Assembly: GCF_003402535.2 (NCBI RefSeq)
Contig: NZ_AP025170.1
Coordinates: 1 to 64,000, forward strand
Direction of reading: 5' to 3'
Length of the DNA: 64,000 nt
DNA from: Cupriavidus sp. P-10
Lineage (GTDB): Bacteria; Pseudomonadota; Gammaproteobacteria; Burkholderiales; Burkholderiaceae
Shown here: piece by piece, positions 6,058 to 27,274 of the stretch
Layout of the letters: each line of letters starts with the position of its first letter
Numbering within the stretch: position 1 is the first letter of the stretch
Position numbers and translations under genes: made by a program
Notes under the pieces: generated by a model
The model's input: only the letters and a program-made list of their open reading frames with translations
Databases searched by the model: none
Told to the model about the DNA's origin: nothing

Positions 6058-6173
6058 GATCCTGTGGGATCCTAGGATAGTCGATGCAATACACAAATCA
6101 CTGAATCGATCTGAAACGAAGCTTCTCGGCAGATTGAGGGCTTGAGCCACTCTGGTTTGCTATGAGCGTCAAG

Positions 6174-6209
6174 AAAAGCCGCCTTCCCGCAAGGGTTCGC
6201 GGCTTTTTT
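6174..6209 (+). terminator. Rho-independent terminator after gyrB
   Basis: AAAAGCCGC (6174-6182) and GCGGCTTTT pair across a loop that itself holds CCCGCAAGGG-like pairing, and a run of six T residues ends the second arm. It lies about 115 bases past the gyrB stop codon and separates the origin genes from the island that follows. Confidence 0.9.
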
Positions 6210-6548
6210 GCTGCTCGCCAACCATGGCCAGTCATCCGTCTTCAGCAATTCTTCTGGTCGTTGTATGCGGGAACCTGGATACCTGCATGCATTTGAACCA
6301 GACCAGTGGATAGACATAATAGACATCGCGACGCTGAAGCGTTACAGCTTCCTGTTTTCACAGCGACAATCGTAACTGTCTCACGGTCGCATTGGATTGA
6401 CGCTGAAATTGAACATGATCGAAAATCATGAACTTGGACATCATTGGTGGCTTTAGCACCTGTAAAATCAAGCGTATCGTCCAAAAATGAACCCTCATGG
6501 TTAGCGAGAAATTAAATCGCCAGAGAGCGACGTGTAGCCAGGGTAGGA
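6210..6548. promoter_or_regulatory. AT-richer leader of the defence operon
   Basis: About 340 bases with no credible gene and visibly lower GC than the origin genes. It must hold the promoter of the sigma-factor/defence operon, but no pair of consensus -35/-10 boxes with good spacing stands out. A perfect inverted repeat, CATGAT (6414-6419) and ATCATG (6425-6430) around CGAAA, is the best operator candidate. The head gene encodes a sigma factor, so a non-standard promoter recognised by that factor is possible. Confidence 0.4.
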
Positions 6549-9500
6549 GTGTGTGCGTGGAAAATCATTCCGACTGCCCACACACGTCATGAAAAAGTGG
6601 GGTTGACTGTGACCGAATCCACGCCAAGCATTGTGCGGCCCATTGGAAAGCTGTTTCGAATTGCTGTGTCTGCAGGTATTGAGACAGCGGTGAAACTGCA
6701 CATTTCTCGGGGCGACGACTTGGAGTGCCGAGACGAGAAAGGCCTTACTCCCCTCATGCTCGCTGCGTCACGCAATCGGGCGGGAGTTTGCCGATTGCTC
6801 ATTAAGGCGGGCGCGAATGTGTTCGCTGTCGACTTTTCTGGCCGGGACGCACTAACAATCGCTCGAGAACGTGGCGCCGCCGCCGCCGCTGAGACGATAG
6901 CGGAGTACTTGGCCAGTCACGGGACCATCCAGGCACGCTCATCGGGCCCCACGGATGCTACCGGAGAACTTCAGGCATCTGCGCCTGAACGCCCGAACGC
7001 CAGCAGTGATCGAAAAGCATACCCGGTGGTTGCATCTCTGACAATCGATTCGGCGCATGAGGGCTCTCAACACGAGGTCTCCAGCAAGGCAGCTACCGGC
7101 ACTATCATCGCTGGAAGCGCAACCCCTGTGAGTCTCGCAGAAGACCATGCACCGCTGCGCCGTATCGGAGCAGATGCATTAGCACCTCCGGTTCCCGCTA
7201 CGATTGGAACAGCTCCACTGGCCGGAGAAGCTACCCCTCTCGATCGTCCGTCGAACGCAAGCGGACTAGATGAGGTAGAGCTACTGACCGCAGCACCAGT
7301 CGCGGCAGGGGGCGGAGATTTGTGCGGAATCGATGTGCGGCAGCCCAGCACTGAGCCGTCGCCATTCCTTTCGCAGAGGAGCGGCGCTCAAACCAACAAC
7401 TGCGAGCTCCAAGACGAGCGGAGCGATACACCGAATGCCCCGGACCGCGAAGGCCAGCTAACTGAACTGACGTTCGGAGATTGGGAAGCCGTAGAACTCT
7501 CGGAACCGCCTCGTGACAATCCCGTTGTGCTCATAACCGAGGCAGAACGACAGCGTCGAATCGACAACCATACGCCGATCGACCACAGCGCAGCTTGGGA
7601 TGACTTGGAGGCCTTCTTGCCGGATTCGGCCAAGTCAATTCTGCGGGTGAGCAATCAGCCTTTCCGGGAGTCGTTGCGAGAATTGCTGCTGCGAGCACTG
7701 CGGGAAGGCAGCGTTCCACTAGTGGCGATTGAGGACGTAATGTCCCGTCGAGGAGATGGCGAAGAGCGCGATCTTCCCGCGGAGGCAGCTCTGGGATTCG
7801 TCCTTGGCGATATGGGTGCCGAGGTCGATGAACGCCTTGAATTCCCATCTGCGATCCCAAGTGAAAACTTCATGGTGATCGTCGATCCCGTAGAAACCGA
7901 CAATGAAGAAGCGGAGGTCGACGAGGCTATCCAGCATTTCGAGGAGCTGCTCTCTGACAGGAACGATCCGCTTCGGATCTACCATCGCGCTGCGGTTAAG
8001 CCCTCGCTTCTGTCAGCGGCGCAGGAAATCGATGTTGCGCGAAAGATGGAAGACGCAGCCTCGCACGCACTCGATGCGTTGGCGACGTGGCCCCGGGGTT
8101 TAAACTACCTTCTTGACAAAATTGGCAAGGCCGCTGGTACCTCGCACCTATCAACCTTCGTGGTTTTGCGCGACGGCGACGCTGACGATGGGGAGCAAAA
8201 TGCTGATACCGATGAGAGCGCCAACGCGAAGCCAGACCTCGAGATTTACCCGGAAGATAATGCTCCTCAGGGCGAATTTATGGGCAAAGAAGAATCGCCC
8301 AACGTTGTGGACGACCCTATCGAAGTCTTAGCCGGCATCCAAGCGCTGGCTGCCGAGTCAATGGACGGAGCATCGACGCCCCTGCGACATGAGCTAGGCC
8401 GGCTGCACTTCAGGCGGCCGTTCCTCATAAGCTTGGAAGAAGTGGCGAAGGGTGACAGTCATCCTTCTGCCTTGGCCTATAGAAGCGCCATCGCCGAGCT
8501 AATCCGCTATCGTGACTACATGACACAGGCCAACCTGCGCTTGGTCATGGACGTCGCCAGGCGTCGCATGCATTCGGGGTTATCGCTCGAAGATCTGATC
8601 CAAGAAGGCAACCTTGGCCTGCTAAAAGCAGTGGACCGCTTCGATTGGCGTCGTGGTTTTCGATTCTCGACCATGGCGACTTGGTGGATCAAGCAGCAGG
8701 TCGGGCGTGGGATCTTCGATACGGCGCTTGAGATTCGTTTACCTGTTCATATCCACGAGAAGGTTTCTCGTGGCCGCTGGGAAATCGAGTCGCTCGAGCG
8801 CATGCGCGGCAAACCCGCCTCATTGGCCGAGCAGGCAGCGATTTGCAGCATGACGCCCGATAAGTTCGAGCTGGCCGCCCGCGCGCTTTCGGAGCCTCTC
8901 TCGATTGATGAGGCACAGCAGGAAGGCTGTTTCGAGTCCGAAGAGACTGACGAGCCGTTCGCTCGCATGGTCGCGCACGATGAGGCGCGGTTGGTCGACG
9001 AAATGCTTGCAAAGCTGAAAGGAAAGGATGCAGAAGTCCTTCGATTGCGGTTCGGCATAGGTGTCCCTGAGGCGCTTACTTTGGATCAAATTGGAGGAAT
9101 TCTCGGCGTAACTCGCGAACGCGTTCGCCAGATTGAATCGGCAGCGATGCGCAAACTCTCGTCTTCGTCTTACCGCGACGCTTTGACAAGGGCGCTGGGA
9201 AAGGTCCCTACGCAATGTAAGACGAAATCTGATGAAGAAGCGCGGACGGGGAGCGACGTCCCTCCCACGCGTTCCGCAAAAACCCGTTCGGGCGAGTCCA
9301 CGTCCACACCCGATCTCGCGAGCGACATTGATACCAACGCGATGCCGGTGCCGCCTCCTGAGGAAACTGCCGCCCCGATATCCGCTTCGATGCAACGACT
9401 GCTCGATATGGCTCATGAGCTTGGTGTTCGGGTTGTTCGAGACCCGTCTGGCCCCAATGCAGGCTTCATATTCGGCGAGATCGATCACCAAGACCGCAAG

Positions 9501-9572
9501 GCGCGCAAATTGATCCGAGACTTGCTCGGGACGGGCTTCGCATGGCAACCGGGAATAGGCTACCGACAATGA
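6549..9572 (+). CDS. Ankyrin-repeat / RpoD-like sigma-70 fusion protein
   Basis: A 1007 aa protein not matching a standard housekeeping gene. Residues about 44-124 form two or three ankyrin-like repeats (GLTPLMLAASRNRAGVCRLLIKAGA). A long poorly conserved spacer follows. Residues about 370-430 resemble sigma region 1.1 (VLGDMGAEVDERLEF); 470-540 resemble region 1.2 (NDPLRIYHRAAVKP, EIDVARKMEDA); an acidic stretch follows. Region 2 (LEDLIQEGNLGLLKAVDRF, RFSTMATWWIKQQ) lies at about 640-715, region 3 next, region 4 (LTLDQIGGILGVTRERVRQ) at about 844-870. A novel tail covers about 945-1007. The stop overlaps the next start codon. The start is uncertain: the GTG at 6549 overlaps an AGGAG; GTG 6609 is an alternative. 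Probable role: directing RNA polymerase to promoters of this island or other targets, gated by the ankyrin part (inference). Confidence 0.85.
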   Translation: MCAWKIIPTAHTRHEKVGLTVTESTPSIVRPIGKLFRIAVSAGIETAVKLHISRGDDLECRDEKGLTPLMLAASRNRAGVCRLLIKAGANVFAVDFSGRDALTIARERGAAAAAETIAEYLASHGTIQARSSGPTDATGELQASAPERPNASSDRKAYPVVASLTIDSAHEGSQHEVSSKAATGTIIAGSATPVSLAEDHAPLRRIGADALAPPVPATIGTAPLAGEATPLDRPSNASGLDEVELLTAAPVAAGGGDLCGIDVRQPSTEPSPFLSQRSGAQTNNCELQDERSDTPNAPDREGQLTELTFGDWEAVELSEPPRDNPVVLITEAERQRRIDNHTPIDHSAAWDDLEAFLPDSAKSILRVSNQPFRESLRELLLRALREGSVPLVAIEDVMSRRGDGEERDLPAEAALGFVLGDMGAEVDERLEFPSAIPSENFMVIVDPVETDNEEAEVDEAIQHFEELLSDRNDPLRIYHRAAVKPSLLSAAQEIDVARKMEDAASHALDALATWPRGLNYLLDKIGKAAGTSHLSTFVVLRDGDADDGEQNADTDESANAKPDLEIYPEDNAPQGEFMGKEESPNVVDDPIEVLAGIQALAAESMDGASTPLRHELGRLHFRRPFLISLEEVAKGDSHPSALAYRSAIAELIRYRDYMTQANLRLVMDVARRRMHSGLSLEDLIQEGNLGLLKAVDRFDWRRGFRFSTMATWWIKQQVGRGIFDTALEIRLPVHIHEKVSRGRWEIESLERMRGKPASLAEQAAICSMTPDKFELAARALSEPLSIDEAQQEGCFESEETDEPFARMVAHDEARLVDEMLAKLKGKDAEVLRLRFGIGVPEALTLDQIGGILGVTRERVRQIESAAMRKLSSSSYRDALTRALGKVPTQCKTKSDEEARTGSDVPPTRSAKTRSGESTSTPDLASDIDTNAMPVPPPEETAAPISASMQRLLDMAHELGVRVVRDPSGPNAGFIFGEIDHQDRKARKLIRDLLGTGFAWQPGIGYRQ

Positions 9573-11059
9573 GTGCGATACGAAATGCGCCACCACGAGC
9601 TGGCGCAATGCTTGAGGCCCTGCGCGGCATGGGCTACTCCACGGGTGCGGCAGTTGCCGACATCATCGATAACAGCATTGCGGCGGGAGCCACTCACATA
9701 GACGTCCAGTTCGCGTGGGACGGTTCAGCCAGTCGCGTGGCCATTCTCGATGACGGCCGTGGAATGGACGACTCAGAGCTTGAGAGCGCCATGACGCTGG
9801 GGGACAAGAGCCCGCTTGACGCACGCGATCCTGAAGACCTCGGCCGGTTCGGCATGGGGCTCAAGACAGCGTCCTTCTCTCAGTGCCGCAGGTTGACCGT
9901 AGTGAGCGCCAAAAGCGGCTCGCACTCCTGCTTGCGATGGGATCTCGATGAGCTTGCGCGAAACCCCGAGATTGGGTGGGCTCTGCTCGAAGGACCGGCC
10001 CCCGGATCGGAGCCCTTCATCGCAACGATGCTCGAGCGCTCTCACGGGTGCTTGGTGCTGTGGGAGTCGATGGATCGCATTGTGACCAAGGCATTCTCAC
10101 CTGAACACTTCCTTGATTTGGTCGACGAGGTCCAGCAGCACCTAGCCATGGTATTTCACCGACTCATCGGAGGACTGCATCCAAAGTTGCAACTTGCGAT
10201 CAACGGGCGTCCTGTCATCGCTTGGGACCCATTCATGTCGGGGCATCCGGCGAAGCCTTGGGAGTCACCAGTCGCCCGGAAGTCGACGGATTCTGGCCCG
10301 ATCACCCTGCAATGCCACGTGCTGCCTCACAAGGACCGGCTCAAAGCCGACGAGTTTGATTCCAACGGCGGCCCCGCAGGCTGGAGCACACAGCAGGGGT
10401 TCTACGTCTACCGCAACGAACGACTTCTCGTTGCCGGTGGATGGCTAGGGCTCGGGCAGGGCCGCGGTTGGAACCGTGAAGAAGCCTACCGGCTCGCACG
10501 AATCCAACTGGACATACCGAATACCGCCGACGCAACCTGGAAGATTGATATCCGAAAGTCGACCGCACGGCCGCCCGTTTCGTTGCGACCTTGGCTTACC
10601 AAGCTCGCCGAGGACACACGCGAAAGAGCGCGGCGCGTGTTTGCCTATCGCGCGGCCCCGCAAGGCCGGATAGGTTCGGCACCAATTGAACTGGCGTGGA
10701 GAGCTGAGCACACCAAAGCTGGCGTGAAATACCGCATCGACGAGAAGCATCCTGCAGTCGTAGCTGTATTCGACACTTGTGAAAAGGGTTCGGAGCTTGT
10801 GCGGGTGATGCTCCGGGTAATTGAGGAGACAGTGCCCGTTCAGCGCATTTGGCTGGACACTGCCGAGTCGAAAGACACGCCGCGCAGCGGCTTTTCAGGT
10901 GAGCCCAGCGCAGAGGTGCAGAACGTCTTGGTTGTTCTGTTCAGGGACATGGTCGTTCGAAGGAACATGAGCGAGGAGCTCGCCCGAACAACGCTAGCGG
11001 TAACGGAGCCCTTCCAAGATTATCCGGCCTTGGTTGCCGGCCTGCGTCTCGAATCTTGA
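9569..11059 (+). CDS. GHKL ATPase, MORC/MutL-like, defence-associated
   Basis: A 496 aa protein with an N-terminal HATPase_c_3-type Bergerat fold: ADIIDNSIAAGA (N-box, 30-41), ILDDGRGMDD (59-68) and LGRFGMGLKTASFS (91-104). In MutL and MORC proteins these bind ATP and drive clamp-like dimerisation on DNA. The residue aligned with the catalytic Glu of the MutL N-box is Asp31. The ATG at 9569 is chosen because it overlaps the sigma-factor stop codon as ATGA, a sign of translational coupling; an earlier in-frame codon at 9542 is less likely. ATPases of this type next to Z1, PD-(D/E)XK and AIPR genes are known from predicted restriction-modification operons. I infer a DNA-remodelling or sensing role; the substrate is unknown. 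Confidence 0.88.
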   Translation: MSAIRNAPPRAGAMLEALRGMGYSTGAAVADIIDNSIAAGATHIDVQFAWDGSASRVAILDDGRGMDDSELESAMTLGDKSPLDARDPEDLGRFGMGLKTASFSQCRRLTVVSAKSGSHSCLRWDLDELARNPEIGWALLEGPAPGSEPFIATMLERSHGCLVLWESMDRIVTKAFSPEHFLDLVDEVQQHLAMVFHRLIGGLHPKLQLAINGRPVIAWDPFMSGHPAKPWESPVARKSTDSGPITLQCHVLPHKDRLKADEFDSNGGPAGWSTQQGFYVYRNERLLVAGGWLGLGQGRGWNREEAYRLARIQLDIPNTADATWKIDIRKSTARPPVSLRPWLTKLAEDTRERARRVFAYRAAPQGRIGSAPIELAWRAEHTKAGVKYRIDEKHPAVVAVFDTCEKGSELVRVMLRVIEETVPVQRIWLDTAESKDTPRSGFSGEPSAEVQNVLVVLFRDMVVRRNMSEELARTTLAVTEPFQDYPALVAGLRLES

Positions 11060-11083
11060 AAATGTCTAAAAAAGGGGGAGAGG

Positions 11084-13951
11084 ATGAGCGTATCTGAATC
11101 CATACAGACGAAAATAATTTCGATCGCGCAGATCCTGCTGCGTGACGCGCCAGAAGAAACAATGCGCTCGCCCAGTGCGATAGCCGACAACGTACGGATA
11201 GCCGCTATGACGATGAGAGCGGCGCCGGGTGACTATGACGAGGAAGCAGCTGTTGCCGAGCTCATCCGACGATTCAGTCAATGGGTTCCCAACGATTCTG
11301 CGTTGACTGACCCCGCTGGACACGAGGACTGGTTTCAACCCTCGATAAAGAAGGACTGGCGCTACTGGCAGCGACTCCAACGCTACTTGGAGCGCTCCCT
11401 TGCTGTAAATGTCGTGGAGGCGCTTGACCGTTCGACTGATGGAATCATTGCGCAACTTGAAGACCCCAAGAGGGAGGCCCCTTGGGACCGTCGAGGATTG
11501 GTTGTGGGTCATGTGCAATCCGGCAAGACCAGTAGCTACTCGGCGCTTATTTGCAAGGCGGCGGATGCTGGCTACAAGATCATCGTTGTACTTGCGGGCA
11601 TGCATAACAACCTTCGCTCGCAAACGCAAATACGCCTCGAGGAAGCGTTCCTGGGTTACGAGACTTCTCCGAACCGCGATCCGGGCAATCCAATCGGTGT
11701 CTTCTATGAAGATCGAGATCCGAACATTCACCCCAACTGCGCCACCTCACGCGATGAAAAGGGCGATTTCAACGGAGCGGCAGCCAAAAAATTTTCGGTC
11801 TCACCAGAGCAACGACCTTGGCTGTTTGTCGTCAAAAAGAATAAGTCGGTGCTCCAAAAATTGCTCAAATGGATGCGTAGCAATCACGTCGCGAATGCGA
11901 CCGATCCAGAGACGGGCCGGAAATTTTCGACAAATTTGCCGCTGCTGGTAATCGACGATGAGGCCGACAACGCGTCCATCGACACCGGCGAGCAAGAGTT
12001 CGATGAAAACGGCATCCCTGATCCCGAGCATGAACCGAAGGCTATCAACAGCCTAATCCGACAGATCCTGGATACCTTCGCAAAATCGGCCTACGTAGGA
12101 TATACGGCCACGCCCTTCGCCAACGTCTTCATTCACCGGCGGGGCAAAACGAAGGATGAAGGCGAAGACCTCTTTCCTCGATCTTTCATCTGCAACTTGG
12201 CTGCTCCGTCGAACTACGTTGGGCCCACCCGCGTCTTCGGTATAACTGGCCCCAGTGGTGAGCGGATCGGGGAACTTCCGCTAGTGCGTGCGTTCGATGA
12301 CCATGCCGACATGGAGGGTGGGGGCTGGATGCCCGCCAAGCATGGAAAGGATCATATCCCGACACATGGTGGAGAAGACTCCTTGCCGCCGTCCCTGCGC
12401 GGGGCCGTCCACTCATTCTTGCTCGCTTGTGCCGCACGCGCTTGCCGCGGACAAAAAGCTAAGCACTGTTCGATGCTGATCCATGTCACGCGGCTCACGC
12501 TTGTGCAAAATCAAGTGCGGCGGCAAGTTGACGAATTCGTCAAGCGGATGTCGCAGCGCTTGGCACGGAAGGTCGATGCTGCGGAGCTTCTGGCTAACCT
12601 TCAGGACCTCTGGGAATCCGACTTCGTTCCGACTCATAAAACAATCCAAGAGGCATTAGTCGATGGCGATCGACCGGCTGATCTGCCCTCGTGGGACGAA
12701 ATCGCGGCCGTGCTACCAGACGCAGCCGCCGACATCGTCGTCAAGACGATCAACGGATCCGCCAAGGACGCACTCGACTACGTCGAAAAAGAGGCCACCG
12801 GCCTCAAGGTGATTGCCATCGGCGGCGATAAGCTCGCGCGAGGTCTGACGCTCGAGGGGCTAACAACCAGCTACTTCGTTCGCACCACGAAAATGTATGA
12901 CACGCTCATGCAGATGGGGCGATGGTTTGGTTATCGACCAGGCTATCTCGATCTTTGCCGGTTGTATACGACCGGCGACCTGATTCGCAGCTTCGGACTG
13001 ATCGCAGATGCTGCCGAAGAGCTGCGGCAAGAGTTTGACGCAATGGTGGCTGTGGGTTCCACGCCTGACAAGTATGGTCTCAAGGTAGCGTCGCATCCTA
13101 GTCTTTTGGTCACCTCGCCAATGAAGATGAGGACTGCGCAAACGGTGCGGCTTTCGTACAGTGGTTCGCTCACGCAAACCATCGCGTTTCCATCGGACTC
13201 TGCATCGCTTCAAGGCAACCTTGATGCAGCCGAACACCTTGTCGCAAACATAGGGGCACCCGCAGTCATCGGTCCGAAACAGGATCGGCCGGATGGGATC
13301 GATGACTGGAAGCGCTCTTGGCTCTGGAGGGATGTCTCATCCGAAAGAGTCAAGGCGTTCCTGCATGCCTACGCGGCTGCCCCAGGCATCGAGCGCGCCA
13401 ACGGGGAAGTAATGGCGGAATTCGTCGATGAGATGAACAAAAAAGGCGAGCTGGAATTATGGACGGTGGCGCTTATCGCCGAAGGTCGATCCGATAATGA
13501 TGCCAGGCGTTACAAGTTCGCCGAACGCTTCGAAGTTAAGGCCATGCCCATGCGCTCACCAAAGGGAGATGGCAAAGGGTACTCGATCGGTGTGCTGACT
13601 GATCCCGCCGATGAGGGAATTGACGTAGCGACGGACGGGTGGGAGGCAGCCCTAGAGGTCACAATCGGCACATGGAAACGCGAAGGGAATAAGGGGCGGC
13701 CCATACCATCCCGCCCGAGTGGGCGTTCGCTGCGTGATCTGCGAAGTGCCGAACGACCCGGCCCGACCCATCGAGGATTGTTGCTGCTCTACCCACTTTC
13801 ACCAACACCCAACAGGGAACACGCTATTGCCGGCTGGGACAAGCCGATTATCGGATTTGCGGCCAGCTTCCCATCGAGCAATCAAGAGGTGGCAGTGGAA
13901 TACAAAGTCGATCACTTGTTGTGGGAGCAGCAGTATGACTCTCCCGAGTGA
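11084..13951 (+). CDS. Z1-domain superfamily 2 helicase-like ATPase
   Basis: A 955 aa protein. Walker A is GHVQSGKT (142-149). A DEAD-like box, VIDDEADNAS, lies near 289-298. YVGYTATPFANVF is the motif III equivalent. The Z1 domain around 580-640 contains GGDKLARGLTLEGLTTSYF and QMGRWFGYRPGYLDLCR, with the Arg-rich motif VI equivalent. A clear GGGGAGAGG ribosome-binding site precedes the ATG, 24 bases after the ATPase gene. Z1 proteins are ATP-driven nucleic-acid translocases of predicted restriction systems. This one would move along or unwind DNA for the nuclease encoded next, whose gene starts inside its last 17 bases. Confidence 0.93.
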   Translation: MSVSESIQTKIISIAQILLRDAPEETMRSPSAIADNVRIAAMTMRAAPGDYDEEAAVAELIRRFSQWVPNDSALTDPAGHEDWFQPSIKKDWRYWQRLQRYLERSLAVNVVEALDRSTDGIIAQLEDPKREAPWDRRGLVVGHVQSGKTSSYSALICKAADAGYKIIVVLAGMHNNLRSQTQIRLEEAFLGYETSPNRDPGNPIGVFYEDRDPNIHPNCATSRDEKGDFNGAAAKKFSVSPEQRPWLFVVKKNKSVLQKLLKWMRSNHVANATDPETGRKFSTNLPLLVIDDEADNASIDTGEQEFDENGIPDPEHEPKAINSLIRQILDTFAKSAYVGYTATPFANVFIHRRGKTKDEGEDLFPRSFICNLAAPSNYVGPTRVFGITGPSGERIGELPLVRAFDDHADMEGGGWMPAKHGKDHIPTHGGEDSLPPSLRGAVHSFLLACAARACRGQKAKHCSMLIHVTRLTLVQNQVRRQVDEFVKRMSQRLARKVDAAELLANLQDLWESDFVPTHKTIQEALVDGDRPADLPSWDEIAAVLPDAAADIVVKTINGSAKDALDYVEKEATGLKVIAIGGDKLARGLTLEGLTTSYFVRTTKMYDTLMQMGRWFGYRPGYLDLCRLYTTGDLIRSFGLIADAAEELRQEFDAMVAVGSTPDKYGLKVASHPSLLVTSPMKMRTAQTVRLSYSGSLTQTIAFPSDSASLQGNLDAAEHLVANIGAPAVIGPKQDRPDGIDDWKRSWLWRDVSSERVKAFLHAYAAAPGIERANGEVMAEFVDEMNKKGELELWTVALIAEGRSDNDARRYKFAERFEVKAMPMRSPKGDGKGYSIGVLTDPADEGIDVATDGWEAALEVTIGTWKREGNKGRPIPSRPSGRSLRDLRSAERPGPTHRGLLLLYPLSPTPNREHAIAGWDKPIIGFAASFPSSNQEVAVEYKVDHLLWEQQYDSPE

Positions 13952-14939
13952 TCAACTCACGCTTGCCTGGAGTTCCCTTGCAACATCCGGCGATAGAGGC
14001 GAGGGCTGGCGCAGCATCGTGATCTCGCCTGCCGGAGCTGCCTTGGTCCGCGCTGGTCTCCGCTTCCCCGCTGGGGCGGAGGCAATCCTAGTGCGATTCT
14101 CGGCTTCCTCGCTACCAACAACAGTCAAGCTGCCCGAAGGTGGTGGGTTCCTCATCGAGCGCGCGTCGCTTGAAGATGGCCTCACCTGGGTTGCATTGAC
14201 GCGGCGCGCAGCCGCCAGTCTGGATTTGTTCGCGGCGATGGCGAGCGATGTTGCCGCTGCGCTTTCTTCTTGCCCAGCTTCCGACGAGACCAAGTCGCTG
14301 GCGACACTCTTGGGACGTGTGCGAGCGTGGCAGGAATTCATGCGCAGGGGCGGCGAACCTTTGAGTGCGGAAGCCGAAATCGGTCTCTTCGGCGAACTTT
14401 TGCTGCTGCGCGCAATGCTGGATGAGGGCCTCGACGCCTCGACAGCATGTGAAGGATGGCGCGGACCGCTTCGCGGCCTGCGCGATTTCGAGCTTGGCAC
14501 GGGAGGCATTGAGGTAAAAAGCACGCTGTCCTCATTGGGCTTTCGTGCAAAGGTAGGAAGCCTTGAGCAACTGGACGACACGGAGCGACAGCCACTGTTC
14601 TTGGTTGCTGTGAGGCTGCGTCAGATACAGAGTGGTCAATCTCTTCCCGATGCTGTGGAGATGTTGCGCGACATCGTTGCGGGCGACTCCGTCGCCGAAC
14701 GCTTGCTTGCTGAGCGGCTTATTGCGTCTGGCTACCGAGATCAGCACGTCGACAGTTACACTCGGCGATTCGAGGTCGCTCAGACTCGAGTTCTGCGGGT
14801 TGACCAAGGATTTCCTCGACTAACACCGTATTCGGTACCCCATGGTGTTGAACATGCTTCATACGAGATCGACATCGACAAAGCTGACGCTGCGACGCTC
14901 GACTTGCACTGCGCTCTCTCGGAACTGAAAGGAATCTAA
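13935..14939 (+). CDS. PD-(D/E)XK motif protein, candidate nuclease of the island
   Basis: A 334 aa protein starting MTLPSDQLTLAWSSL. The ATG at 13935 overlaps the Z1 stop codon by 17 bases. The central part shows a PD-(D/E)XK core: EAEIGLFGELLLLRAML followed by FELGTGGIEVKST near 183-195, the spacing expected for the acidic and Lys residues that bind metal. Proteins of this family (DUF4420) accompany Z1 ATPases and are thought to be the DNA-cutting subunit of the predicted restriction complex. No methylase or other recognition domain is fused to it. The AIPR gene starts directly after the stop codon, so the two are cotranslated. Confidence 0.88.
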   Translation: MTLPSDQLTLAWSSLATSGDRGEGWRSIVISPAGAALVRAGLRFPAGAEAILVRFSASSLPTTVKLPEGGGFLIERASLEDGLTWVALTRRAAASLDLFAAMASDVAAALSSCPASDETKSLATLLGRVRAWQEFMRRGGEPLSAEAEIGLFGELLLLRAMLDEGLDASTACEGWRGPLRGLRDFELGTGGIEVKSTLSSLGFRAKVGSLEQLDDTERQPLFLVAVRLRQIQSGQSLPDAVEMLRDIVAGDSVAERLLAERLIASGYRDQHVDSYTRRFEVAQTRVLRVDQGFPRLTPYSVPHGVEHASYEIDIDKADAATLDLHCALSELKGI

Positions 14940-16709
14940 ATGGAACTTATTGACTTCCTGCGCGAGACGCAGGCCGAAGTGCTTGCCCAGACCGAGAGTG
15001 ATCAACCTTATGCCGAGAGCGCTTTCACGGAAATTGTGATGCAGCATATGGCTGATATCGGGATGACATACGAGCCGGAGCCAACGCATTTCTCCCGTAA
15101 GGTTGGCAACGCGAACGTCCGCCTGAGCGGCTATTCGGTCTCGGACGAGCAGGAGCAGCTCGACCTTTTCGTAAGTCTGTATGAGGGGGTCGACGAGCTC
15201 GCCACGGTCCCGGACTCCGAGACCAAGACAGCCGTGGAGCAATGTCTGAGATTCCTCCAACTTTGTGCTGAGGGCAAGCTTGCGAGCAAGCTTGACCCGT
15301 CCGACGAGGTGCGCATCCTGGCCGACATCATCCACGGCCTATATGATGAGCTTGAGCAGATTCGTATCTATGTACTGACTGATCGAGTGGCCAAAACTCT
15401 TCAGTTCAAGCCGCGGGAGATTGGCGGAAAGACTGTGCATTTGGAAGTCATGGACATCGCGCGCCTGCACCGTCACTGGTCCGAGGGTAAACCGCGCGAT
15501 GAGCTGGTCGTGGACTTCAGCGACGTTTGTGGCGCTCCCCTTCCATGCGTCTTTGTCCCTGGGAATGGAGAGGACTACGACTATGCGCTGACGGCCGTAC
15601 CTGGCGAGGCACTACGCCTACTCTACGAAAAATTCGGTGCGCGGCTGCTCGAGGCTAACGTGCGCTCATTCCTTAGCGTCAAGGCAAAAGGCGTCAATGC
15701 CGGCATCCAGAATACACTGAGGACAGCGCCAAGCCGGTTTATGGCGTACAACAATGGCATAGTGGTTGTAGCCGACGAAATGAGGCTTGACGACACGGGG
15801 GGCGGGGCTGCCGGCATCGCTTGGCTCAGAGGTCTCCAGGTAGTCAACGGCGGTCAGACGACCGCCTCGATCTACTTTGCTAAGCGTAAATACCCCGATA
15901 CGGATCTTTCCCGCGTGCGCGTGCCAGCGAAGATCATAGTCATGAAAACGCAAGACGCCGCGAAAGAAGAAGCACTGGTCGCGGATATCTCGCGATTCGC
16001 GAACAGCCAAAATGCGGTGAAACAGTCCGACCTTTCCGCCAACAAGCCTTTCCACGTCCAAGTCGAACGCCTATCGCTGGCTGTCTACTGTCCTGATGGC
16101 CGCAGCCGCTGGTTCTACGAACGCGCAGCTGGAAGCTACAACACAATGCTGGTTCGCGAGGGAACGACCCCTGCAAAGCTGCGAGACCTCAAGGAAACCA
16201 TGCCTGTGTCACGGCGCATCACGAAGACTGACTTGGCCAAATACCTCGCCGCTTGGGACAGGCACCCCGACATTGTCAGTCGCGGCTCACAGAAGAACTT
16301 CGAGCAGTTCATGGCAACATTGTCCGGGCCCGAAGGCGCTGAGGTGCCGCCGCCTGAAGTCGTGGATTACAAGCGAATGATTGCTAAAGCGAAATTATTC
16401 AGAGACACACAGAAGATGATGCGCTCGATGTTCCCCGCTTTTCAGGCGAACATTGCAGCTTACACATTCTCGTTGCTTGCGGACCGGCTAGGCGAACGTA
16501 TTGATCTCGAACGTATATGGGCAACGCAAGGCGGTTCTAACCAGTTGATGGATCAGATCGCCCGCTGGGCCCGCGAGGTAGACACAGTCCTGCATCGCAC
16601 TGCGAATGGTCGAATGGTTTCGGAATGGGCCAAGAAGCCTGAGTGCAAAGAGGCCGTATTCGCGGCGAACTACTCTGCACCTGATGAAGCCATTCCGGAG
16701 CTCAAATGA
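14940..16709 (+). CDS. AIPR family protein (abortive infection phage resistance)
   Basis: A 589 aa protein whose ATG directly follows the TAA of the nuclease-like gene. The AIPR core is clear: LEANVRSFLSVKAKGVN, NTLRTAPSRFMAYNNGIVVV and LQVVNGGQTTASIYFAKRK (about 290-320). AIPR proteins were first linked to abortive infection of phage-attacked lactococci and recur in Z1/PD-(D/E)XK/methylase operons. The biochemical activity is not settled. It is the last gene of the island's plus-strand operon and converges with the methyltransferase gene. Confidence 0.92.
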   Translation: MELIDFLRETQAEVLAQTESDQPYAESAFTEIVMQHMADIGMTYEPEPTHFSRKVGNANVRLSGYSVSDEQEQLDLFVSLYEGVDELATVPDSETKTAVEQCLRFLQLCAEGKLASKLDPSDEVRILADIIHGLYDELEQIRIYVLTDRVAKTLQFKPREIGGKTVHLEVMDIARLHRHWSEGKPRDELVVDFSDVCGAPLPCVFVPGNGEDYDYALTAVPGEALRLLYEKFGARLLEANVRSFLSVKAKGVNAGIQNTLRTAPSRFMAYNNGIVVVADEMRLDDTGGGAAGIAWLRGLQVVNGGQTTASIYFAKRKYPDTDLSRVRVPAKIIVMKTQDAAKEEALVADISRFANSQNAVKQSDLSANKPFHVQVERLSLAVYCPDGRSRWFYERAAGSYNTMLVREGTTPAKLRDLKETMPVSRRITKTDLAKYLAAWDRHPDIVSRGSQKNFEQFMATLSGPEGAEVPPPEVVDYKRMIAKAKLFRDTQKMMRSMFPAFQANIAAYTFSLLADRLGERIDLERIWATQGGSNQLMDQIARWAREVDTVLHRTANGRMVSEWAKKPECKEAVFAANYSAPDEAIPELK

Positions 16710-16789
16710 ACCTAAACACCGGTTCACGCACAAAGAAGTGCTGCCGAGCCAGATAGACATAAACGTTGCTGACATCGTTCCTCGGGCCG

Positions 16790-16811
16790 CGCGCCGTCGC
16801 ATGACGGCGCG
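16790..16811. terminator. Perfect 9-bp hairpin between AIPR and Dcm genes
   Basis: CGCGCCGTC (16790-16798) and GACGGCGCG (16803-16811) pair perfectly around a GCAT loop. It lies in the 180 bases between two convergent genes, where a bidirectional terminator is expected. There is no T run, so it may need Rho or act by blocking read-through. Confidence 0.5.
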
Positions 16812-16889
16812 TATTCAGCGCAAAGAAAACTGCATCCGAAGCGCGTAAACGCGATCGGCATCTCCTGCCGCCCCCATGATTCAGTGCTT

Positions 16890-18443
16890 TCAGATGAGCT
16901 GAAGAACAACCTGTGCGATCTTGTATGCCAGCAGCGGCGGAACGGCATTGCCGACCTGATGGAACTGCTCGGTGCGATTGCCCTGAAAGAAATAGTTGTC
17001 GGGGAACGTCTGCATCCGTGCCGCCTCGCGAACGGTGAAGCTCCGACATTGCGCAGGGTCCGGGTGGATGAAGTAGTGACCATCCTTCGCGATATGGCTT
17101 GTGATCGTCGTGGAAGGTCGACCGTACTGTTGCACCCTGAACCGGTCAGCAAACTTGCCGGACTTCCAGTTGCGATGCTCTGGGTGAAGTCCGCTCAATA
17201 GCGAGAATTCTTCGTGTCCCTTCGGCGAGCGTTCAAACGCCTTCGCGAAGACCGCCGAATATGCGTATCGCCTGAGATCGCTGCTCATGTGTCCACGCAC
17301 CTCGGAATTCAGCCATACCCGGAGGTTGCTGTCGTGATACCAACGCTCTAGCTCTGTCCGCGGCGTGAACTCCGACCTAGTCCTTTCCAGCCGTAGGTTT
17401 CCGGTGCCGAGGTCGCCGGAAAGGCTGGATAGTGCTTGTCTGAGTTCGCGGCGGAGTGGCGACAGGTCATAGCGGCCCTTCGCATCGTCTAGCAGTTCGG
17501 TCAGGTGCCGCTTCACAATGCGGTTCCAAGGAGCGACCTGTTCGTCGCGCCTGCTCAGTTCGCTGCGCAGCTTGGGCAATCCGCTGAGCGCGTGCTCGAC
17601 ATACTTTTGAGCCGTTGCTTGAAGCTGGCCGGGGTTCGCTCCGAGATCCTTGCGGATCCCTAGCAAGATCACGCGATGCCGTGCCTGCGGAATGCCGTAG
17701 TCCTCCGCCCTGATGACGAATTCCCGTGCGTCAATGTCGTCCGGAGACATGTCCCCATGGAATGCGACCGGCGAGGCCAGCGAGTGGATTGTGTATTCAT
17801 GCTGCGCCCGCTTGCCCAATGCCGTGTCAGGCGATGCAAGGTCTTCAAGGATGGTATGGAAGATCTGCTGGTCACCCACCCGCGAGGTCAGAATGCCTTT
17901 GACGTTCTCCATGACGAAAACGGCTGGCTTGTATTTCTGGATGATCTTCAGATATTCGCGATAGAGGAAGTGCCGATGGTCTTCCTCGGGCTTGTAGTCG
18001 GCTTTGCCGCGATTTCGCGACCGCCCGACCAGCGAATATGCCTGGCAGGGCGGGCCGCCGATAAGTACCCAAGGCTTGTCCGGGCCAAGGCCCGCCTTCG
18101 AGATGGCCCGTTCGAGTTCGGCATTTCCTTCCGGCGTACCCAGCGTGATCTGGCGTGCTTCCTCGCCAGCCTCCTCCCATGCAGCGGCCGTGGCCATGTC
18201 CCACGGCGTGTCCGCTATACCGTTGCAGAATCGATAGTATGGCTTGAGTGCAACCGGATCCTCTCGCTTGAGCAGGCGGTAGAATGCCCTCAACCGCAGG
18301 GTGCGGTGCGCAGATTCGTCCATCTCCGCGGAAACGATGGTGCGGAACGCCTTACCATCATCGAGTGCTGAAAAGCCTTCGCCAAGGCCTCCAGGGCCTG
18401 CAAACAAGTCGACGACGGGGGTGGGAATTGGCCGTTGCATCAC
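16890..18443 (-). CDS. DNA (cytosine-5-)-methyltransferase
   Basis: A 517 aa C5-cytosine methylase. Motif I VVDLFAGPGGLGEGF is at 10-24, motif IV GGPPCQAYSLVGRSR near 130 with the catalytic Cys, motif VI FVMENVKGI, motif VIII QARHRVILLGIR, then a target-recognition region, then motif IX-X (REAARMQTFPDNYFF, FHQVGNAVPPLLAYKIA). It protects host DNA in the island's predicted restriction system. The recognition sequence cannot be read from sequence. The partner Vsr gene is divergent, 139 bases away, which suggests a mismatch-prone C5-methylation site of Dcm type. It is transcribed towards the AIPR gene. Confidence 0.95.
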   Translation of the reverse strand: MMQRPIPTPVVDLFAGPGGLGEGFSALDDGKAFRTIVSAEMDESAHRTLRLRAFYRLLKREDPVALKPYYRFCNGIADTPWDMATAAAWEEAGEEARQITLGTPEGNAELERAISKAGLGPDKPWVLIGGPPCQAYSLVGRSRNRGKADYKPEEDHRHFLYREYLKIIQKYKPAVFVMENVKGILTSRVGDQQIFHTILEDLASPDTALGKRAQHEYTIHSLASPVAFHGDMSPDDIDAREFVIRAEDYGIPQARHRVILLGIRKDLGANPGQLQATAQKYVEHALSGLPKLRSELSRRDEQVAPWNRIVKRHLTELLDDAKGRYDLSPLRRELRQALSSLSGDLGTGNLRLERTRSEFTPRTELERWYHDSNLRVWLNSEVRGHMSSDLRRYAYSAVFAKAFERSPKGHEEFSLLSGLHPEHRNWKSGKFADRFRVQQYGRPSTTITSHIAKDGHYFIHPDPAQCRSFTVREAARMQTFPDNYFFQGNRTEQFHQVGNAVPPLLAYKIAQVVLQLI

Positions 18444-18582
18444 AAATCGGGCAGAAGAGCTTTCAAGAGCGGGACATTACCAGGAACGCGGCTTCCAGTC
18501 GAGTGCAGCGAACCGCTCGTGCAGTACCGGGCTTCCTGCAGGAGCGAATTCAACCAATGCGCAACATTGGGAGGAGCCTTGG
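18444..18582. promoter_or_regulatory. Divergent promoter region for methyltransferase and vsr
   Basis: 139 bases between the divergent start codons. GAGGAG at 18571-18576 is the vsr ribosome-binding site. Placing methylase and nickase genes back to back lets one region control both. I cannot assign exact promoters. Confidence 0.5.
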
Positions 18583-19035
18583 ATGGTCGATGTAGTTTCA
18601 GTGGAGACGCGCTCGCGGATGATGTCCGGTATCCGGGCGAAGAACACCCGACCGGAAATGCGCCTGCGGCGATTTCTGCACAAGGCGGGATTCCGATACC
18701 GGTTGCACGATCGCTCGCTTCCGGGCACTCCAGATCTGGTGTTCCCGCGCTTTCGTACCGTCATATTGGTTCACGGCTGCTTCTGGCATCGCCACGCCAA
18801 ATGCCGCCTCGCCACGACGCCCGGTACGAATGTCGAGTTCTGGCAACGCAAGTTCGCCTCCAACGTCGAAAGAGATAGCGTTGCAGTGGGGGAACTGCTT
18901 GCCGCCGGTTGGAAGGTAATCGTGATCTGGGAGTGTGGCCTCAAGTCGGTGAGTTCCGAAAGTCGCCTCGAATGGCTTCCCGGACACATAGCGGGAGGCT
19001 TGAAGCAGTATCTGGAATGGCCGGCATCTGAATAG
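18583..19035 (+). CDS. vsr: Very short patch repair endonuclease
   Basis: A 150 aa Vsr nickase. It cuts 5' of the T in T:G mismatches made by deamination of 5-methylcytosine, so that the methylase does not become mutagenic. The family core is intact: SGIRAKNTRPEMRLRRFLHKAGFRYRLH, then LPGTPDLVFPRFRTVILVHGCFWHRH, which holds the metal-binding Asp and two active-site His residues. E. coli Vsr is 156 aa. The ATG at 18583 follows GAGGAG by 6 bases; a longer open frame upstream is not family-like. The divergent neighbour is the C5 methylase. Confidence 0.95.
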   Translation: MVDVVSVETRSRMMSGIRAKNTRPEMRLRRFLHKAGFRYRLHDRSLPGTPDLVFPRFRTVILVHGCFWHRHAKCRLATTPGTNVEFWQRKFASNVERDSVAVGELLAAGWKVIVIWECGLKSVSSESRLEWLPGHIAGGLKQYLEWPASE

Positions 19036-19107
19036 CTGTCGTGCGGAAACGGACGATGCAACGATCGCTGACATTCTGCGGGCCAATTTTGCGATTCCGT
19101 CACGCCA

Positions 19108-19440
19108 TTGCCGGTCATGGCCATGCTCTGACCCAGTTCCAGCTGCAGCTTGGCCGGCGGTACGCCGGTATCGCTCAGGATAGTGGTGAGGTGATGCAGG
19201 AACTGCTCGTGGCGGAATTGCTGCGTGGAGCGGTTGACGGCAATCCGGCCAAACGCGAAACCCTCGTCGATCCAGAGGCGTGCCTGCCAGCAGGCTTCAC
19301 ACAATACCCAAGTGGTGATGGACGCGCCGGGTGCCAACGGCCCCGACCCCGGATGCTGCCGGCGCAGCAGCGCTTCCAGACAATGTCGCCGCTGCGCATG
19401 TCATAGACCGGCTGGTAGTGCACGCGGAATTCGTCGGATC
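19108..19440 (-). pseudogene. EAL-domain (c-di-GMP phosphodiesterase) remnant
   Basis: On the minus strand, DEFRVHYQPVYDMRSGDIV (start of an EAL domain) occurs in one frame. In the next frame LEALLRRQHPGSGPLAPGA continues, then WVLCEACWQARLWIDEGF and RIAVNRSTQQFRHEQFL, as in EAL proteins. One frameshift separates the two parts, and roughly 16 residues normally found between PGA and WVL are missing. The similarity stops after PPAKLQLELG. No start, stop or complete catalytic set survives. This is a dead gene fragment abutting the right edge of the defence island. Confidence 0.8.
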
Positions 19441-19742
19441 CGTTTGGGAATCGGCTGTTTTGAGATTCCGCTGCATTGTTCCCAGCGGATGGTCGTCGGA
19501 AACTGGCAGCGTCACCAGCAATGGCTGACCAGGTTTGACAGCCTGTCCCATATATAGCGGACGAAGCAGATAGCGGTATCCTCTCGTCCTTGCGCCTTCG
19601 CACGTCCTCTGGGCGGGCCTTGGCAGGGGAGCCCTAAGGCTCGCCGGTTTATATGTGGCCGGTCTGTCAATCCTGCTTCGTGCCCGCCCACCCCGATTGA
19701 CAGCGGACAGCGGGCCTCCATCCCACATATACGGAGGTCGCA
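19441..19742. promoter_or_regulatory. Nested inverted repeats upstream of the DUF1484 gene
   Basis: TATATGTGG (19650-19658) and CCACATATA (19723-19731) enclose a second perfect pair, CTGTCAATC (19664-19672) and GATTGACAG (19695-19703). A related word, CCCATATATA, stands at 19548-19557, also preceded by TTGACAG. The region ends with ACGGAGGTCGCA just before the ATG, a good ribosome-binding site. The structure could be an operator, an attenuator or a decayed palindromic element. Confidence 0.55.
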
Positions 19743-20994: not shown

Positions 20995-22092
20995 TCATGC
21001 AGCCAAACGCTGGTTTTCGGCTCCTGGCTTGATACCACCGGTGGGCACGGCAATCTCGCGCTCCGGATTGAGCGTGACCGTGTCGATTGGCGACCAGTCG
21101 CGCGTGTGTCGTGACCAGCGACGCGGGTTGCAGTCACGAGCCTGAACATAGAGCGCGTGGCGCGCGGCCAGAATCTTGTTGTCCTCTCCGGCATGGCGCT
21201 GTGCCGGGCTCACGTAGCGGATGCCGCTGTGCCGGTGCTCATGGTTGTACCAGTGGACGAAGTGGGCCGCCCACGTACGTGCCGTGACCAGATCGGCAAA
21301 GCCTGTAGACGGGAACTCCGGCCGGTACTTGGCCGTGCGGAACAGGCTTTCCACGAAGGCGTTATCGTCGCTCACCCGCGGACGCGAGTACGAGGGCTTG
21401 ACGCCCAGCCAGTGCAACATCGCCAACACCGTGGTGGCCTTGAGCGTGGCGCCGTTGTCACCGTGCAGCACCGGCTTGGCCGCCATGGCGTGAATGCCCT
21501 CGGCCAGCGCTGTGCGTTTGACCAGATGCGCCGCGTGGTCGGCGTCGTCGCGGTCGTGGACCTCGAAGCCCACGATTTTGCGGCTGTACACGTCCAGGAT
21601 GAGGTACAGATAAAACCAGCGCCCGGCGACCTCGGCCGGCAAATACGTCATGTCCCAGCACCACAGTTGGCGCGGCCCCGTGGCCACGTGCGTGGTGGGC
21701 GGACGGCGCTGGCGCGGCGCCTTAGCGCGTCCTCGATGCCGGGTCTGCCCATGGGCGCGCAGCACCCGACCGAAGCTCGATTCGCTGGCCAGGTAGACAC
21801 CCTCGTCGGCCAGCATCGGTACGATGCGCGCCGGCGGCATGTCGGCGAAGCGCGGCTCGTTGGCAACGGCCAGAATGCGTTCGCGCTCCTCAATGCTCAG
21901 CGCATGCGCGGGCGTGGGCCGTTCGGCCCCGGGGCGGCGGTCGCCGACCACCAGGCCATCGTGGGCCTTCCAGCGTTGCAGAGTGCGCACGGTTATGCCA
22001 GCTACCTCGCACGCCAGGCGCAGGCGAGCGCCGCCTGCATGCGCGGTTTCGATATGGCGGACCATCGTGTGGCGATCTTCCAGGCCGATCAT
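20995..22092 (-). CDS. IS3-family transposase OrfB (rve integrase domain)
   Basis: 365 aa. An N-terminal helix-turn-helix (LRLACEVAGITVRTLQRWK) is followed by the DDE/rve core: WCWDMTYLPAEVAGRWFYLYLILDVYSRKIVG gives the first Asp, LHGDNGA the second, and NAFVESLFRTAKY the Glu. A conserved WYNHEHRHSGIRYVSPAQRH tail follows. All catalytic residues are present, so it may be active. Its ATG overlaps the OrfA stop codon as ATGA, so it can be made by coupling; many IS3 elements also make an OrfAB fusion by frameshifting. Confidence 0.93.
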   Translation of the reverse strand: MIGLEDRHTMVRHIETAHAGGARLRLACEVAGITVRTLQRWKAHDGLVVGDRRPGAERPTPAHALSIEERERILAVANEPRFADMPPARIVPMLADEGVYLASESSFGRVLRAHGQTRHRGRAKAPRQRRPPTTHVATGPRQLWCWDMTYLPAEVAGRWFYLYLILDVYSRKIVGFEVHDRDDADHAAHLVKRTALAEGIHAMAAKPVLHGDNGATLKATTVLAMLHWLGVKPSYSRPRVSDDNAFVESLFRTAKYRPEFPSTGFADLVTARTWAAHFVHWYNHEHRHSGIRYVSPAQRHAGEDNKILAARHALYVQARDCNPRRWSRHTRDWSPIDTVTLNPEREIAVPTGGIKPGAENQRLAA

Positions 22093-22568
22093 GCGTCCTC
22101 GTCCTTGTCCTTCGGGAAGATGCCCTCTAGCTTTTTTGAGAGTATCAGCAGGGCGGCGGCTTCAGCCAGCGCCTTCTCCTTGCGGCGCAGCTCGCGTTCG
22201 AGTTCCTTGATGCGGCGCCGATCGGCCTTCGTCTCGCGAGGGGTGGCGCGCGCATCCTCGGGCTCCGCCAGCGCCTGCGTGGCGGCAGCACGCCACTGCT
22301 CCAACTCCTGCGGATACACACCGTTCTCACGGCACCAGGCGTTCTTGCTGGCCTCGTCCATCGCAGCCGTCGCCAGCACCGCCTCAAACCTGGCCGCCGC
22401 TGTCCATGCCCGCTCGCGAGCGGGCATGGACATAGCGTCCGCACGCCAGCGCTCCAGCGTGGCCACTGCCACACCCAGTTCCCTTGCAACCACTTCCACC
22501 GCCGCACTCTCCGGCGGTAACAACCGCGCTACCGCCCGGTCCTTGAAATCCTTCCCGTAACGAGCCAC
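22089..22568 (-). CDS. IS3-family OrfA
   Basis: 159 aa, starting MARYGKDFKDRAVARLLPPE. It has an HTH_Tnp-type DNA-binding region (VEVVARELGVAVATLERWRADAM) and a C-terminal basic heptad region (RRIKELERELRRKEKALAEAAALLIL), a leucine-zipper typical of IS3 OrfA. It recognises the element's ends and pairs with OrfB. Confidence 0.9.
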   Translation of the reverse strand: MARYGKDFKDRAVARLLPPESAAVEVVARELGVAVATLERWRADAMSMPARERAWTAAARFEAVLATAAMDEASKNAWCRENGVYPQELEQWRAAATQALAEPEDARATPRETKADRRRIKELERELRRKEKALAEAAALLILSKKLEGIFPKDKDEDA

Positions 22569-26614: not shown

Positions 26615-27274
26615 TTAGTACACCCCTGGCACCATCCGCCATGTCCGTCCACAGTACGCCGCATACTCATCCCCAAATTGATCAAGCAATAACGCCTCTT
26701 CCGCCCGGATCCGCGCCACCAGCACCGGCACCATCGCCACCGTCAGCAACACGCCCACGCCTGAACGGAATCCGAGTACCCATCCCAGCGAACTGACCAC
26801 GAATCCGAGATAGCTCGGATGCCGGATCACGCCGTAGATGCCGGTAGTCACCAGCGTATGCCCGGGCTGGATCGCCACCAGTCCGCTGAACCGATGCCCA
26901 AGCACGAACACCGGCCACAAGCGCAGCACGCCGCCGGCGGCAAACAACGCCACGCCAATCCAGCGCACGGTATCCCCATCCAGCGTCCAGAAGCCGATGC
27001 GGTCGGTATAAGCCGGCAGGTAAGCCGCGAGCAGCCCGAGCACGCCGAACGCGGCCAGCACCCAGCGGTTGCCGCGGTCTTCGCGCATGCCGCTGCTGAC
27101 GTTGCCGCCGGAGAACAGCGCGGTCACGGCCAGGGCGAACAGCACGATGGTGAGGGCCACGCGCGCGGGATGCGCAAAGAAGGCGCCGATGCGGCCCCAG
27201 CCCGCGATCGCGATGGCGAGGTAGGCAACGGTGCCGGCGAGGGTGGCGAATGCCAGGCCAGGAGTCGGGCGCAT
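26615..27274 (-). CDS. Isoprenylcysteine carboxyl methyltransferase (ICMT)-like membrane protein
   Basis: 219 aa with five or six hydrophobic helices. The C-terminal half has the ICMT/PEMT signature: GHTLVTTGIYGVIRHPSYLGFVVSSLGWVL, then RIRAEEALLLDQFGDEYAAYCGRTWRMVPGVY, the S-adenosylmethionine-binding and C-terminal RxxxEExxL...Y motifs. Bacterial members methylate small lipophilic or protein substrates; the substrate here is unknown. I choose the Met at 27274 (MRPTPGLAF) because the signal-like first helix begins there. It is probably independent of the polyamine operon downstream. Confidence 0.82.
   Translation of the reverse strand: MRPTPGLAFATLAGTVAYLAIAIAGWGRIGAFFAHPARVALTIVLFALAVTALFSGGNVSSGMREDRGNRWVLAAFGVLGLLAAYLPAYTDRIGFWTLDGDTVRWIGVALFAAGGVLRLWPVFVLGHRFSGLVAIQPGHTLVTTGIYGVIRHPSYLGFVVSSLGWVLGFRSGVGVLLTVAMVPVLVARIRAEEALLLDQFGDEYAAYCGRTWRMVPGVY

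Follow-up and report, generated by a model that had tools for sequence, protein, structure and literature searches.

The window analysed here is a stretch of 64,000 nucleotides from Cupriavidus sp. P-10 (NZ_AP025170.1, positions 1 to 64,000), which forms the start of contig 1 in a genome of 9.08 Mb and 5 contigs. With gene names read from the open reading frames, it begins with dnaA, dnaN and gyrB, which are followed by an operon of five genes, mzaABCDE, that are all present in the order of the MZA anti-phage system and on a single strand. The first gene, mzaA (6549..9572, + strand, start possibly at a GTG at 6609), encodes a fusion of ankyrin repeats with a sigma-70 factor. It shares an ATGA overlap with mzaB (9569..11059, +), which encodes a GHKL ATPase of the MORC/MutL-like type. 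Then follow mzaC (11084..13951, +), mzaD (13935..14939, +, longest open frame from 13719), which encodes a PD-(D/E)XK protein with DUF4420, and mzaE (14940..16709, +), which encodes an AIPR protein. The operon is adjoined by dcm, the C5-cytosine methyltransferase gene of the locus (16890..18443, - strand), and by vsr for a very-short-patch endonuclease (18583..19035, +, longest open frame from 18301). A promoter scan gave three RpoD-like sites with 0.8 expected, which we do not count as evidence, and the predicted RNA fold at the start is nothing special (z 0.35).

As judged from the sequences, we are dealing with a divergent anti-phage system of the MZA kind, next to which lies a dcm/vsr module. 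The MZA system (mzaABCDE) is said by others to go back to Gao et al. 2020 (Science 369:1077). PADLOC models match all five window proteins as MzaA-E, and the NCBIfam models NF041931-NF041935 name all five as well, every one under its curated cut-off (bits/cut-off: MzaA 406-407/800, MzaB 751/850, MzaC 1154/1500, MzaD 350/420, MzaE 934/1050). In view of these scores the window proteins are divergent relatives and not NCBI equivalogs; the cut-off is also missed by nine of ten other MzaB proteins tested. The NF041931 match spans residues 33-885 of the window MzaA and thus takes in both the ankyrin and the sigma-70 part, and positions 3-97 of this model also match other ankyrin-like stretches in the genome. 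Four RpoD-type sigma factors of the same genome are ranked by this model (508-456 bits) above the window MzaA, so that the model itself is strongly RpoD-like. These four lie at G000 C1:2590890, C1:1578195, C3:150750 and C4:136845, with open frames of 863, 742, 679 and 679 amino acids. An earlier note on this DNA had proposed that an ankyrin/sigma-70 fusion heads a defence operon; the fusion is confirmed here, and the defence operon is supported. The note knew of no described role for a dedicated sigma factor in this class of systems. That such a factor is undescribed does not hold, as PADLOC and NCBIfam both name MzaA, a passage of PMC9523054 calls mzaA a sigma factor, and the E. coli mzaA product combines ankyrin and sigma parts.

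Within MzaA, the ankyrin repeats (6648..6941, +, residues 34-131) are recognized by Pfam and modelled with pLDDT blocks of mostly 94-98. A conserved motif and a region-1.1-like domain without a Pfam match follow (7461..7844, +, residues 305-432), and then sigma region 1.2 (7956..8138, +, residues 470-530), which is sub-threshold in Pfam. Region 2 for core binding and the -10 element (8526..8753, +, residues 660-735) has the exchanges Y430M and T440G (positions as in the E. coli protein). Regions 3 and 3.2 (8751..8948, +, residues 735-800) are diverged, with 18% and 13% identity to E. coli RpoD, respectively. In region 4, the -35 reader (8955..9203, +, residues 803-885), T583, R584, E585, R586, R588, Q589 and E591 are kept. 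The protein ends with an alpha/beta domain (9369..9569, +, residues 941-1007), which is present in a minority of relatives. This tail of about 65 residues is confidently modelled, has no Pfam or PADLOC family match and was also flagged in L036, L039, L044, L053 and L079. The structure model as a whole (mean pLDDT 68.9, pTM 0.41) is confident for the ankyrins, the sigma domains and the tail and of low confidence at residues 130-313. In the PDB it matches chains of E. coli sigma70 best (E 1.5e-15), with a TM score of 0.19-0.21 by query length, which means that the domains match sigma70 and their arrangement does not.

The residues for core binding and promoter contact are almost constant in 85 MzaA rows from the loci described below (81 different, 4 repeats), aligned to RpoD. 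For core binding, D403 is kept in 84 rows, N409 in 82, and Q406, G411 and L412 in all 85. F427, W434 and Q437 occur in 85/85 rows and W433 in 82/85, and the -35 readers R584, E585, R586, R588 and Q589 are kept in 84 of the 85, the remaining row being a gap. The contact roles of these residues we take to be those of sigma70. The window MzaA likewise retains the core-binding and the -35 and -10 contacts, with the exceptions Y430M, T440G and Y425F. Methionine at position 430, a tyrosine in RpoD, is found in 75 of the best 120 homologues, a set that is biased to the window's kin, and in 7/85 locus rows; at position 440 the window MzaA has a glycine.

Among 7,991 candidates scored, 167 MzaA homologues were found at E 0.001, and a Pfam ankyrin domain is present in 113 of the best 120. 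A scan of genome contigs anchored on MzaB, of which the best 80 of 197 relatives were kept, was combined with three viral loci and ten loci from genome samples (6+4), giving 87 loci after removal of 6 duplicates. A sigma gene lies immediately ahead of mzaB on the same strand in 85 of these 87 loci, from many genera, and the two loci without one, L080 and L082, are contig ends. This rules out that mzaA is a chance neighbour, and the earlier note was right in treating the fusion as a real part of the operon; the inspection of homologue neighbourhoods that it had suggested shows the fusion repeatedly in front of mzaB. All 56 loci that extend 3.5 kb or more to either side have the sigma gene, ankyrin-fused in 53 of them at the threshold used, and carry dcm in 44 cases, vsr in 50, either in 54 and both in 40. 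In viral contigs the MzaB scan yielded three loci, one of them on the same contig as L080, and phage records contain only three MzaB relatives (32-34% identity). Viral contigs were also scanned with the E. coli MzaA, and the 80 relatives kept of 110 match it from residue 317 or later, which excludes the ankyrins.

The new finding concerns the origin of the sigma part. In about five lineages, regions 1.2-4 appear to have been replaced from the rpoD of the host's family, whereas the N-terminal half stays. When the sigma parts of 86 MzaA and 33 RpoD proteins were placed in one tree, some MzaA fell among the RpoDs. For a comparison with the hosts, 49 of 80 loci were picked to include suspected captures; 47 of them entered the search, and 44 of the 47 genomes gave an RpoD at the limit set; where a host has several, the one best RpoD was taken. 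Across these 44 hosts the identity of MzaA to the host's own RpoD in regions 2-4 ranges from 0.38 to 0.96, and in 6 hosts, with 1 expected, no other RpoD ranks above the own one. The own-host excess in regions 2-4 is 0.0123 and was equalled in 0/20,000 permutations. Taken by region, such an excess is present in region 1.2 (z 4.2), the NCR (6.5), regions 3.0-3.1 (3.9), region 3.2 (4.4) and region 4 (3.3), and absent from the 1.1-like part (z -1.0). With the five clearest loci removed the excess is smaller and persists, both for regions 2-4 (z 2.6, 34/10,000 permutations) and for the NCR (z 3.7, 1/10,000).

The clearest case is L089 on a complete chromosome of Cupriavidus pinatubonensis, where MzaA is 96% identical to the own RpoD in regions 2-4 and the two genes share a 1550-base tract of 86.7% identical DNA. 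On the NCBI RpoD model this MzaA reaches 826 bits against a cut-off of 555, and on the MzaA model 774 bits against a cut-off of 800. The Nitrosospira MzaA (L085) is 89% identical to its own RpoD, which ranks second, behind or tied with the RpoD of another nitrosifier. For Rhodanobacter (L030) the value is 75%, for Limnohabitans (L052) 70%, with 70% also in the NCR, and for an acidobacterial metagenome-assembled genome (L104) 67%, where no other RpoD exceeds 61%. Identity to the host RpoD amounts in region 2 to 100% (L089), 96% (L085) and 87% (L052), and in region 4 to 90%, 83% and 79%, respectively. The NCR was compared at 11 loci picked after the tree. In L089, L085, L052 and L030 its nearest counterparts are those of the family to which the host belongs; in L086, L032/L040 and L096/L097 it points less strongly to the host's genus or family. 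We set the number of capture lineages at about five because elsewhere only the NCR agrees. In L056 the NCR points to the Comamonadaceae and not to the host's family, as if the sigma part had been captured before transfer. That the sigma part of MzaA arose only once was rejected, with a p-AU of 0.00056 for MzaA as one clade (42 versus 42 rows, both groups enriched for suspected captures, in a quick tree with long branches). In that tree L104 stands with its own RpoD (SH-aLRT 98), L085 with Nitrosomonadaceae RpoDs (97) and L089 with Cupriavidus RpoDs (87). The captures were picked after viewing, and all trees were quick ones.

The N-terminal half, comprising the ankyrins and the 1.1-like domain, by contrast seems to belong to MZA. 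Distances were correlated in those 74 of 87 loci whose A, B, C and E proteins are of sufficient length. The 1.1-like part follows MzaB and MzaE with a rho of 0.79 and 0.85, the highest of the MzaA parts tested; MzaB against MzaE gives 0.775. Lower values were obtained for the ankyrins (0.65/0.69), region 1.2 (0.63/0.65), region 2 (0.47/0.43) and region 3 (0.38/0.37). Region 4 does not co-vary with the two proteins (0.155/0.133, with a shuffle maximum of 0.166), and 39 control windows of 80 residues from MzaB, C and E gave 0.29 to 0.79. When 12 captured loci were set aside, the remaining 62 gave 0.83/0.87 for the 1.1-like part and 0.21/0.20 for region 4, which alone stays under the control range.

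As one module stays with MZA and the other follows the host in some lineages, these data suggest that MzaA is an adaptor which links the defence proteins to the host transcription machinery. We propose, tentatively and at a little short of an even chance, that it is a look-alike of the housekeeping sigma factor which ties MZA to RNA polymerase as a bait or tether, and not a sigma factor for special promoters. A literature search, in those parts of the papers it covered, found no worked-out role for the MZA sigma factor. MzaB-E would be an ATP-driven nuclease or abortive machinery, Dcm methylation would keep it off self DNA, and Vsr would mend deaminated sites. The sigma part (1.2-4) of MzaA would still bind core RNA polymerase and RpoD-type promoters, the N-terminal half would dock on MZA proteins, and the engagement of RNA polymerase would thereby become the input of the defence. 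As a bait, MzaA would be acted on as well whenever a phage attacks or takes over sigma70 or the polymerase, which may be the trigger; as a tether, it would bring MZA to promoters that are fired on incoming DNA. Since the promoter contacts are kept, we would argue that MzaA works on DNA together with the polymerase and is not a mere protein lure, and a purely protein-binding decoy that has lost DNA binding is, with the contact residues intact, not favoured as such. Some plant immune receptors use integrated decoys. It is conceivable, though doubtful, that MzaA is a bacterial integrated decoy, in which an imitation of the housekeeping sigma factor is re-copied from rpoD in new hosts, and phage proteins that seize sigma70 or RNA polymerase seize MzaA too and so fire the MzaB-E nucleases. 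If the bait reading is true, bacteria monitor the integrity of their transcription machinery via a host-matched decoy. The replaced sigma part and the MZA-tied N-terminus in any case make the question why a sigma factor is used here directly testable.

A number of observations weigh against the bait or tether proposal and the host matching behind it. Most MzaA copies, the window's included, are not recent captures: in regions 2-4 the window MzaA is only 37-40% identical to the four RpoDs of its genome and thus not host-matched, the E. coli MzaA is 52% identical to its own RpoD and equally so to other RpoDs, and most of the 44 hosts, in a sample enriched for suspected captures, show no clear match. 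Region 2 alone has no own-host excess in these hosts (z -0.3), the NCR of L104 is unmatched to its host (0.15), and regions 2-4 rank only 15th-23rd in L032, L040, L056, L086 and L097 (2nd in L096). In the 62 loci without captures, regions 2 (0.62/0.56) and 3 (0.54/0.56) lie within the control range of 0.33-0.84. Invariant DNA contacts are unnecessary for a pure protein bait, and we know of no ankyrin partner for MzaA. Furthermore, 27 more distant loci from the genome samples, classed post hoc because MzaB or MzaE scored low (MzaB not above 356 bits), were found to contain no sigma gene (0/27); in 23 of them the sequence reaches 4 kb or more upstream of mzaB. MzaB was found in 25 of them, MzaC in 24, MzaD in 23 and MzaE in 23, dcm in 18, vsr in 19 and both in 15; L197, a contig end, is excluded from the near and distant counts. 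MZA-like chemistry therefore does not need the sigma protein, and mzaBCDE with dcm/vsr looks like a wider system, in which the sigma gene is confined to one branch. Finally, the gene conversion involving rpoD may be a passive process, and there is less reason to discount a role at special promoters for the window clade, as the window MzaA has drifted and may have altered its reading of the -10 element.

Such a special role would make MzaA a dedicated sigma factor, which upon triggering of the ankyrins directs the polymerase to its own promoters, those of the mza operon or of a defence regulon. The position of mzaA as first gene of the operon, the presence of the promoter-contact regions and the -10 changes of the window clade (Y430M, T440G) would fit this. 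Against it, regions 2 and 4 of L089, L085 and L052 are near-identical to those of the host RpoD, so that promoter choice should be RpoD's, and the region 4.2 contacts barely vary. In the best captured copies, with DNA-binding regions near the host RpoD's and three of them passing the RpoD cut-off, a special regulon is unlikely. The idea of the earlier note that the sigma factor switches on its own promoters is weakened by these near copies of host RpoD, and we regard it as unlikely overall.

Less probable still is that MzaA serves as a back-up, which sustains RpoD-type transcription of host or defence genes when a phage blocks sigma70. The RpoD-like DNA contacts are retained, and the diverged region 3 could evade anti-sigma factors, but a re-copied host sigma would share the original's sensitivity to phage anti-sigma factors, and the N-terminal half co-varies with MzaB and MzaE. 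We give as little credit to a passive exchange, in which the sigma part would simply help to express the operon in the ordinary way and would resemble host rpoD through accidental gene conversion between the homologous genes. In its favour, the replaced tracts sit where mzaA and rpoD are alike, and most copies are not host-matched; against it, replacement took place in several lineages, and it is the poorly conserved NCR that has the largest own-host excess (z 6.5).

The dcm/vsr pair is exchanged independently of the mzaBCDE core, since the identities of the two modules diverge. Compared with L086, the window is 82% identical in dcm and 79% in vsr versus 48-59% in MzaB-E, and compared with L133 it is 62-81% identical in MzaB-E versus 44-49% in dcm and vsr. 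Such an exchange would be expected if methylation marks self. L086 is from C. respiraculi, and its MzaA is identical to that of the MZA locus in the same-genus genome G001. At a Duganella MZA locus (L079), matches to vsr and dcm lie on either side, and in Massilia a second, longer AIPR-like gene immediately follows mzaE (L083:16944-19868, L098:11643-14345). In the window, 6110-19456, from gyrB to about 19.46 kb, is a variable slot in congeners, with insertion-sequence transposase-like open reading frames directly to its right (20995-22568, read from the frames). Among 16 congeners compared, the right border of the slot recurs in 4, with 8-12 kb in between, and in L398 sequence like that at window position 26619 comes 65 bases after gyrB. 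When 10 large open reading frames were scanned in the slots of six congeners, type I restriction genes were found in L384, L387 and L392, HerA with a Schlafen-type helicase in L391 and an SNF2-type helicase in L386; those scanned in L383 showed no recognised family.

Two related loci carry beside mzaE a protein of 911-920 amino acids (L201:12370-15102, -; L202:222-2981, +; 60% identical between them). It contains a sigma region 4, recognized at E 1.5e-7 and 2e-11, and matches the alpha-CTD below threshold. The PADLOC MzaA model matches only its region 4. No MzaA was detected at these loci, which are both incomplete (L201 has a mzaB fragment, L202 ends near mzaE). The protein is, as far as its domains indicate, a second RNA-polymerase mimic unrelated to MzaA. 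It has three matches among 48 genomes, the third at the end of an 11-kb contig on which no MZA genes were found.

Compared with known systems, the window shares with MZA the five genes and their order, and the mzaA of the annotated E. coli locus, whose protein was read directly, likewise joins ankyrins to a sigma factor. It differs in the adjoining dcm and vsr, none being annotated in the stretch read around the E. coli locus, in the extra C-terminal domain of MzaA and in the altered -10 contacts. The E. coli locus (L270, H9Ecoli) is flanked by a site-specific integrase gene on one side and by yecA/tyrP on the other, and a restriction endonuclease gene precedes mzaA. According to the passage of PMC9523054 on mzaABCDE, with mzaA as sigma factor, few of the systems described there have mzaA, and their identity to mzaBCDE is about 20%. 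The MORC/paraMORC restriction-modification operons of Iyer, Abhiman and Aravind 2008 (PMC2292703), which the earlier note had rightly named, have in common with the window the GHKL ATPase, the helicase, the REase-fold nuclease, the DNA methylase and Vsr, and AIPR is named in the part consulted; a text search of that article for 'sigma', 'ankyrin' and 'RpoD' gave 0 matches each. BrxL of BREX is, in the part of PMC12839542 concerned, also a defence protein, one of whose domains is described as similar to sigma factors (sigma-HTH-like). Closest to MzaA is RpoD (sigma70) itself, with which it shares regions 1.1-like, 1.2, 2, 3 and 4 and whose cut-off (PRK05658) is exceeded by three of five MzaA relatives tested (L089, L085, L052). 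MzaA differs from it by the added N-terminal ankyrins and linker, by a 1.1-like domain that follows MZA, and by its place in a defence operon.

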